Assembly: GCA_024710005.1 (NCBI GenBank)
Contig: JANJVQ010000022.1
Coordinates: 50,305-114,304 of the forward strand
Direction: 5' to 3'
Source of the DNA: Paludibacter sp.
GTDB lineage: Bacteria > Bacteroidota > Bacteroidia > Bacteroidales > Paludibacteraceae
Length of the DNA stretch: 64,000 nucleotides
The position numbers and the translations under genes were made by a program. Below are positions 7,499 to 9,120 of this stretch, piece by piece (position 1 is the first letter of the stretch; every line of letters starts with the position of its first letter). The notes under the pieces are model-generated. The model was not told the origin of the DNA, ran no database searches, and was given only the letters and a program-made list of their open reading frames with translations.

Positions 7499-7534
7499 TC
7501 ATTCCCTGTAAAATGTTATATTTGCAGGGAATGA
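7499..7534 (+). promoter_or_regulatory. -7 box enclosed by a perfect 10-bp dyad (candidate operator)
   Basis: TCATTCCCTG (7499-7508) and CAGGGAATGA (7525-7534) are exact inverted copies. The 16-bp interval between them ends with TATATTTG (7517-7524), a consensus -7 box. A repressor bound to the dyad would cover the promoter of the DUF4861 gene. A transcribed hairpin is the alternative. The -33 element is weak. Confidence 0.6.
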
Positions 7535-7658
7535 GTTTTTAAGGGATCAGATTCCTTATTATAATCGTAACAACAGGTAACTATAATTAGATAACATTAC
7601 CCATTATTTGCAGAATTAATTTATTTCGCAATAAACTAATTTTAAGCATAGTGACAAA

Positions 7659-7915
7659 ACCTTATTTTATAAACCTTATTTTCTTACTAAAACAACCTTA
7701 GTAGGGAAAAATAATAATTATGACTACCTCTCTTACCTTATTACCTTATTTAATTTAATAAGGTTAAATAAGGTTTAGGATAATGTGACAATCATTTGCT
7801 ACTAAGGTTGTTTTAGTAAGAAAATAAGGTTAAAAATAAGGTTGAGATAACAAAATCAATATTTATTTCTACTAAGGTTGTTTTAGTAAGAAAATAAGGT
7901 TAAAAATAAGGTTGG
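7659..7915. repeat. Three-copy TAAGGTT element: one inverted, two direct
   Basis: A 46-bp element built from CTACTAAGGTTGTTTTAGT and AATAAGGTT blocks occurs at 7799 and 7869 in direct orientation (70 bp apart and nearly identical) and at 7659-7704 inverted. A 32-bp core is exact in all three. Between the inverted and direct copies lies a further palindromic TACCTTATT/AATAAGGT stretch. The whole could fold into one long AT-rich stem or alternate stems. Confidence 0.85.
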
Positions 7916-7989: not shown

Positions 7990-9120
7990 ATGAAAAAAAA
8001 CAAAATCAGTATCCTTATTTTAATGTTAGCAACAGCAGTTTCCGGCTTTGCGCAGACAACCATTGAAATCGTCAATCAGTATCCATTCGACAGAGCAGAT
8101 GAAATCGTTGAAATTGCAGCATCCGAACTGGGTGGACTTTCAGGCACCAATTATGTGCTTACCGATGAAAATGGTCTGGAAATCCCCTATCAATTGATTT
8201 ATAACGGTACTGAAAGTGTTCAGGCTTTGCTGTTTCCGGCAACGGTTAAAACAGGAACCAAAGTGGCTTACACATTAAACGAAGGCACCCCAAAAGCAGT
8301 AAAAGCCAAAACTTCAGCACGCTTTGTTCCGGAAAGAAAAGATGACTTCGCATGGGAAAACGACATTGCCGCCTATCGCATGTACGGTCCGGCGCTTGCC
8401 GCTGAAAACCCATCCAATGGTATCGACCTGTGGTTGAAAAGAACTGAAGAACTGGTTGTGGATAGTTTCTACAGAGGTGAACTGAAATACGGCAAATCGT
8501 ATCACGAAGATCACGGTCAGGGACTTGATTGCTACAAAGTAGGTAATACCCTGGGTGCCGGTGGTGTTGCTCCGTATGTAAACGGTGAGTTGCTGGTCGG
8601 CAAACATTTCGACACCTATAAAGTACTGGATAACGGTCCACTTCGCTCCAGCTTTACACTTACCTATAACGAGGTTGATATCAACGGAAAGAAATACAAA
8701 AAGGAAGTCACCATCCACACCGATGCGGGAACCGTGATGAACAAAGCTGTGGTCAAACTGACCGGAGAGAAACAGCCTATGCAACTGGCAGCGGGCATTA
8801 CCCTGCACGATGGCAAAGGTTCTCTACAAAAAGGTACCGGACTGATTGTGTATGGTGAAAACGCTATTGCCGACAAAGATCAAAAAAACGTGGGAAAAAA
8901 TTATGTAGGCGTTGTGTTGCCGGACAAAGAAGACCTTTATAAAATTCAGAACCTGCATGCCCTGCTGATGAAAAATTACGTGCCAGGAGAAGAATTTACC
9001 TATTACTTTGGCGGAGGCTGGAGCCAATGGAAGTTCCCGACCCAGAAAGAATGGCTTGCCGCCGTACAACAATTCTCCAAACAAGTAAAATACCCGTTGA
9101 CAGTTAGGATAGTTAAATAA
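7990..9120 (+). CDS. DUF4861 family secreted protein
   Basis: A 376-residue protein with a Sec signal peptide (hydrophobic core ILILMLATAVSGF, then AQTT), so it is exported to the periplasm or beyond. The body matches DUF4861: the opening IEIVNQYPFDRADEIVEI, the block WENDIAAYRMYGPAL, and YYFGGGWSQWKFPTQKEW near the end. Family members accompany uronate and pectin or ulvan utilisation genes in Bacteroidota. Here it follows kduI-kduD, separated by a 579-bp repeat-filled spacer with its own likely promoter. The biochemical activity is not established; a role in processing uronic-acid-containing glycans is inference. It is convergent with the biotin carrier gene. Confidence 0.85.
   Translation: MKKNKISILILMLATAVSGFAQTTIEIVNQYPFDRADEIVEIAASELGGLSGTNYVLTDENGLEIPYQLIYNGTESVQALLFPATVKTGTKVAYTLNEGTPKAVKAKTSARFVPERKDDFAWENDIAAYRMYGPALAAENPSNGIDLWLKRTEELVVDSFYRGELKYGKSYHEDHGQGLDCYKVGNTLGAGGVAPYVNGELLVGKHFDTYKVLDNGPLRSSFTLTYNEVDINGKKYKKEVTIHTDAGTVMNKAVVKLTGEKQPMQLAAGITLHDGKGSLQKGTGLIVYGENAIADKDQKNVGKNYVGVVLPDKEDLYKIQNLHALLMKNYVPGEEFTYYFGGGWSQWKFPTQKEWLAAVQQFSKQVKYPLTVRIVK

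Follow-up and report, generated by a model that had tools for sequence, protein, structure and literature searches.

The leader of a DUF4861 gene in Paludibacter sp. holds a cluster of near-identical inverted and direct repeats, and the question is what these repeats are and how they came to lie there. The window, that is the whole stretch of DNA analysed, spans 64,000 nucleotides of this genome (G000). A sequence-only reading had described one inverted and two direct copies of a 32-bp core; the arrangement was confirmed at that place, with a core that by eye is exact over 33 bp (inverted copy at 7672-7704, direct copies at 7799-7831 and 7869-7901). The direct copies form part of a 46-bp block, CTACTAAGGTTGTTTTAGTAAGAAAATAAGGTTAAAAATAAGGTTG, which stands on the + strand at 7799-7844 and again at 7869-7914. 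Over 53 nt they are 96% identical at a spacing of 70 bp, and the inverted copy (7667-7704, - strand) shows 95% complementarity across 38 nt. The window contains 11 instances of the motif AATAAGGTT where 1.2 would be expected, with 8 of the 11 falling in the 256 bp between 7658 and 7913, and within the window CTAAGGTTGTTTTAG at 0 mismatches is confined to the same element. The element thus reaches slightly beyond the extent first described, and has a palindrome at its centre (Table 1).

Table 1. Features of the DUF4861 leader (window positions) and sites of the second repeat family (contig positions).
Feature	Position	Strand	Remark
TAnnTTTG box, similar to the Bacteroidetes -7 promoter element	7517..7524	+	Consensus match; conserved in 3 relatives
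Outer repeat AACCTTATTTT, left arm	7658..7668	-	
Left-arm core AACCTTATTTTCTTACTAAAACAACCTTAGTAG	7672..7704	-	Reverse complement, without mismatch, of positions 1-33 in each right arm
Left spacer	7705..7734	n/a	Without complementarity to the right spacer
Inner palindrome ACCTTATTACCTTATTT ... AATAAGGTTAAATAAGGTTTA	7735..7777	n/a	In the C15 copy, tnpA occupies the loop here
Right spacer	7778..7798	n/a	
Right arm, copy 1	7799..7843	+	
Right arm, copy 2 (extra tandem arm, period 70 bp)	7869..7913	+	Sister genome G069 has the second arm too
DUF4861 gene (PF16153; BT_3233-family polysaccharide utilisation protein)	7990..9120	+	Downstream gene
C16-type repeat sites	C2:25601; C7:158428; C10:66555; C30:215077		C2 site just after a tRNA-like sequence

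The element is predicted to fold strongly. As single-stranded DNA, 7657-7845 reached -49.5 kcal/mol compared with -14.6 +/- 2.6 for shuffled sequences (z -13.3), and the RNA fold of the full stretch had a z of -11.3. In the latter the left arm pairs with the second right arm, so that alternate stems are possible; the earlier suggestion of alternate long stems is therefore supported by both DNA and RNA folding. With the promoter-like TAnnTTTG box upstream, the element would fall within the 5′ UTR of DUF4861. This box is overlapped by an inverted repeat, TCATTCCCTGTAAA / TTTGCAGGGAATGA (7499-7534), which is conserved in three relatives and is a possible operator.

A genome search of the kind that the sequence-only reading had proposed returned 23 arm matches representing ~12 loci on ~10 contigs. 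Nearly all of these loci contain an inverted arm pair ~100 bp apart, and the copies follow a single plan of left arm, ~30-nt spacer, inner palindrome, spacer and inverted right arm. Every copy in this genome is intergenic, with adjoining genes in all orientations. The flanks beyond AACCTTATTT...AAATAAGGTT are, by eye, unrelated among the copies. Target-site duplications, a further check that had been suggested, were likewise not seen by eye at the copy ends in this genome, nor was a common outer sequence. Two contig ends (C10, 117742-117926; C35, 62271-62395) fall inside an apparent single copy of the element, where the palindrome probably broke the assembly. The repeats in the DUF4861 leader are one copy, plus an extra arm, of this dispersed palindromic element.

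One copy contains a gene. On contig C15 (110774-111431), perfectly inverted arms of 92 nt surround an ORF of 156 aa, located in the inner loop, which matched Y1_Tnp in Pfam (70.8 bits) and an IS200/IS605 transposase in NCBIfam (score 58 vs 55). An AlphaFold model of the product (pLDDT 81.6) was compared to the PDB with Foldseek, and the top 30 matches were all IS200/IS605-family transposases (ISDra2 and IS608 TnpA among them) or the REP-associated transposase 4er8. The protein carries the motifs PEHIH, WQ and YILNQKTHH. Among its relatives, which are 148-156 aa long, Y---Q--HH is found in 78 of 79, and WQ is invariant in the 15 aligned. Judged from these motifs and the predicted fold, C15 TnpA belongs to the IS200/IS605 superfamily as an HUH/single-tyrosine transposase with a Y---Q--HH signature. 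The earlier proposal of a MITE remnant with an extra copy was thus close, in that the feature is a multi-copy, non-autonomous palindromic element with an additional right arm; the presumed mover, however, is a Y1 rather than a DDE enzyme. Similarly, further copies do exist in the genome, one of them with a transposase between its arms, as would be expected of the ordinary multi-copy IS end that had been raised as a counter-explanation, but this enzyme is of the single-strand Y1 type and not that of a TIR/DDE IS.

Contig C16 (L041, 800-2100) encodes a paralogous Y1 transposase, 46% identical to C15 TnpA, that has a repeat family of its own, AACTTGATT..CAACTTCAGTGA. Behind this gene stands an array of arms, AACTTGATT ... 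CAACTTCAGTGA, built on the same plan as those of the C15 family. Arms of the C16 type are dispersed in the genome, mostly as direct arrays (9 arms on 5 contigs, control 0; Table 1). One genome therefore holds two enzyme/repeat pairs, different in sequence and alike in arm design, with one tnpA per repeat family. Two more Y1 genes with the Y---Q--HH motif, on C12 (L039, 1234-2081) and C20 (L037, 2040-2160), are flanked by apparent type I restriction-modification genes and sit among short palindromes (CACCCCTTCGGGGTTT). Within this genome the 13-mer ACCCCGAAGGGGT is restricted to the C12 locus, and the CCCCGAAGGGG palindromes beside the C12 gene were rejected as a dispersed family, all five copies being at that locus. 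A further Y1 gene, on C34 (L038, 1302-1927), has on its flanks an inverted repeat of ~63 nt, unrelated in sequence to the C15 family.

A scan of GTDB genomes yielded 276 TnpA relatives, and 80 loci were read, including loci from Paludibacter, other Bacteroidales, Prolixibacteraceae, Chitinophagales and Ignavibacteria. Eleven further relatives encode a TnpA of 60-75% identity between arms of the C15 plan. When the upstream and downstream flanks of tnpA were compared in mutually inverted orientation across 76 loci, the mean local score was 57.3 for a locus's own flanks, 31.4 for flanks of different loci and 20.0 for shuffled flanks, and at 62 of the 76 the own-flank score exceeded the largest shuffled score. 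At least three arm motifs were present no more than 350 bp from tnpA in 34/38 loci, compared with 1/38 at 2 kb. Of 247 genomes from the order, 34 contained the arm pattern, the richest with 24 arms (reversed control 0), as did 7 of 396 genomes sampled across the phylum (control 0). Within the order, arms co-occurred with a tnpA of the clade (11/16 vs 23/231, p = 2e-7; tnpA rows sorted into the clade by hand), the latter 23 genomes having arms without a clade tnpA at E <= 1e-20. Several tnpA loci are broken.

Moreover, the arms vary together with the enzyme. Arm motifs fall into the types CCTTA, CCTCA and CCCTTA, and a change of type runs throughout a locus, through all sub-repeats and both arms. 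Mapped on a TnpA tree built from few columns, with 40 of 76 inner branches weakly supported, the motif type requires four changes; scored by itself, CCTCA requires 3 compared with 16.4 in shuffled data (0/500 as low). Arm sequence tracks the TnpA tree, arm motif and enzyme having co-evolved.

Arms are also matched within copies. For 11 copies in the Paludibacter sp. genome, a left arm scored 36.95 against its own right arm and 31.72 against the right arms of other copies, a difference reached in 0/10,000 permutations (p < 1e-4), whereas the spacers showed no such within-copy resemblance in the same comparison (p = 0.18). In the RNAalifold stem, variable pairs are retained through two-sided changes (UA/GC; UA/AU/CG; AU/UA/CG). 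Such matching fits arms that are either constrained to pair or converted by one another. The sister genome G069 has the leader element together with its extra arm, and all three arms there differ from the window by the same base at one position; for this single case, conversion is a simpler account than pairing. The view that the repeats are young or actively homogenised can be kept in part, given the copy-specific variants common to a copy's arms and the joint change of three arms between species, but the copy itself is older than that species split.

Comparison to close relatives reveals both presence and absence of copies. The DUF4861-leader element is shared with G069 and missing in G027 and G029, which keep the gene. 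Both G027 and G069 lack the C12 copy along with ~95 bp of flank, the C2 copy in G069 has been cut down by partial deletion to the outer left repeat, and the C25 copy is common to this genome and G027. A base-exact empty site was not found at the three loci compared. Many of the copies in G051 lie within an unrelated MITE, which has the TIR GGCATTTTTCAT and what look like target duplications of 8 bp; dispersal there is thus at least partly by hitch-hiking, not by TnpA. The enclosing MITE (L215-L233) is ~300 bp long and its copies are near-identical.

Taken together, we consider the leader feature to be, with a probability of roughly 0.7, one non-autonomous member of a dispersed family of palindromic, TIRtron/REPIN-like elements that are mobilised in trans by a Y1 TnpA. 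The family itself and the strong linkage of its candidate transposase to the arms are observed directly, whereas mobilisation in trans is inferred from linkage, co-evolution and homology, and cleavage would be strand-specific. Weighing against this reading are the 23 genomes with arms but no clade tnpA, the comparison of three loci that gave no base-exact empty site, the hitch-hiking copies of G051 and the presence of a single tnpA per repeat family. In the autonomous form, tnpA would stand between the two inner halves, with the left and right arms outside them. When the region becomes single-stranded, as on the lagging strand, the arms and inner palindrome would pair into one long hairpin, and TnpA, recognising CCTTAGTAG and the CCTTATT iterons in the arms, would nick and rejoin the ends so that the element moves, with or without tnpA in its loop. 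The extra right arm would have arisen by tandem duplication. Given the promoter-like box upstream, an effect of the element on DUF4861 is possible, and any such effect of a 5′-UTR hairpin on expression would be a by-product.

Four other readings were weighed. TnpA may no longer act as a transposase and may instead be a domesticated endonuclease, serving the chromosome by maintaining or processing these palindromes, the copies having spread long ago. The low copy number of tnpA, as in RAYTs and in subclass 1.2 of the Y1 transposases (PMC6006769), and the arm complementarity retained in nearly every copy would be in keeping with this, but the distribution across order and phylum is patchy, copies are present or absent among close species and several tnpA loci are broken, and we regard such a role as unlikely. 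Alternatively, the arms could be the hairpins of a canonical REP/REPIN system, each guided by GT[AG]G and moved by a RAYT (TnpA-REP). The doublets are indeed intergenic and inverted, a cognate single-copy Y1 gene is flanked by the repeats and the arm contains a GTAG. However, that GTAG is not placed at an arm-hairpin foot, the arms are not palindromes, and the local hairpin TTACTAA..TTAGTAG is absent from several copies and relatives while left-to-right pairing is retained. The protein moreover has Y---Q--HH rather than the class 2 Y---NP, and there are about a dozen copies rather than hundreds; a canonical REP system is accordingly improbable. An ordinary DDE-type MITE, with the arms as long TIRs moved by an unrelated double-strand transposase, would account for long inverted repeats in AT-rich intergenic copies, and the 8-bp duplications in G051 might seem to favour it; those belong to the enclosing MITE, a separate element, whereas copy ends in the Paludibacter sp. 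genome lack both duplications and common outer sequence, a Y1 transposase lies between the arms in the 80 relatives (loci that were chosen by TnpA) and the arms track that enzyme, leaving this reading with very little to recommend it. BrickBuilt MITEs of P. gingivalis were also rejected as a match, being of IS5 type with different TIRs and repeats. Finally, that the element is a structured RNA leader (attenuator) of DUF4861, its two right arms forming alternative stems, is scarcely credible in spite of its position between promoter-like box and ORF, its very stable RNA fold and its retention in G069, as the same element stands at about a dozen unrelated loci beside genes in all orientations, the G027 and G029 leaders do without it, and an Rfam scan of the window matched tRNAs only and not the leader element.

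Amongst known systems, the nearest published concept to an element mobilised by a Y1 TnpA is the TIRtron, and among protein groups subclass 1.2 comes closest. In TIRtrons (TIRYT; Di Nocera et al. 2013, PMC3733652), Y1 genes lie between terminal inverted repeats that can form genomic families. C15 shows the same arrangement, a Y1 gene between inverted repeats (92-nt arms) that differ from REP hairpins and belong to a family of ~12 dispersed copies; in both, the flanking repeats can form dispersed families made up of dimers or clusters. The two differ in that many TIRYT TIRs carry GGGGWSAS, whereas here CCTTA iterons are found with an inner palindrome in the loop. Published TIRYTs are class 2 proteins (20 of 26 in subclass 2.1, the others in 2.2 and 2.5; PMC6006769), whilst C15 TnpA is class 1-like by its Y---Q--HH motif.

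Judged by signature and length, C15 TnpA would fit TnpA-Y1 subclass 1.2 (Quentin et al. 2018, PMC6006769), a low-copy Y---Q--HH group of Bacteroidetes and Cyanobacteria, with which it shares ~148 aa, WQ, the signature, low copy number and a Bacteroidetes host. The HuH motif is [ED]H[VI]H here, whereas it is DH[IV]H in that study. There, subclass 1.2 has 'no' in the REP column, which is an observation on the subclass and not its definition, and is generally without IS200-type terminal structures; here, in contrast, a flanking and dispersed repeat partner is present, near tnpA in most loci. The automatic search in that survey required GT[AG]G at the foot of a GC-rich hairpin, which AT-rich arms would fail, and this may explain how they escaped notice. 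In the open-access literature searched, no paper describing a repeat partner for subclass 1.2 was found.

REPINs and RAYTs (Nunvar 2010, PMC2817692; Bertels and Rainey 2011, PMC3116915) resemble the present system in their short intergenic inverted doublets with one cognate Y1 gene and in that every TnpA within a genome has its own repeat family. They differ in that the arms here lack a hairpin of their own with a 5′ GT[AG]G foot, copies are few, the protein is class 1-like and tnpA sits in the element loop; membership of the REPINs fails because single arms are not hairpins. With IS200/IS605 elements (IS608, ISDra2) the system shares the HUH and single-tyrosine fold (Pfam, NCBIfam and Foldseek agreeing), the HUH-Y motifs and the lack of visible target duplications. 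Here, however, long-range inverted arms replace the subterminal hairpin at each end, there is a single autonomous copy and no tnpB lies between the arms.

We tentatively suggest that these elements represent an undescribed Y1/repeat class of Bacteroidota and neighbours, in which subclass 1.2 enzymes, each with its own arm code, would recognise iteron-bearing long-range inverted arms and not hairpins, filling genomes with palindromes kept complementary within each copy. The pairing of enzyme and arms supplies an orphan group of single-strand transposases with a candidate substrate, making its activity directly testable, and two enzyme/repeat pairs with different arms in one genome offer a ready test of specificity. 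The element family also accounts for a set of long palindromes in Bacteroidota chromosomes, which could affect neighbouring genes and break assemblies.
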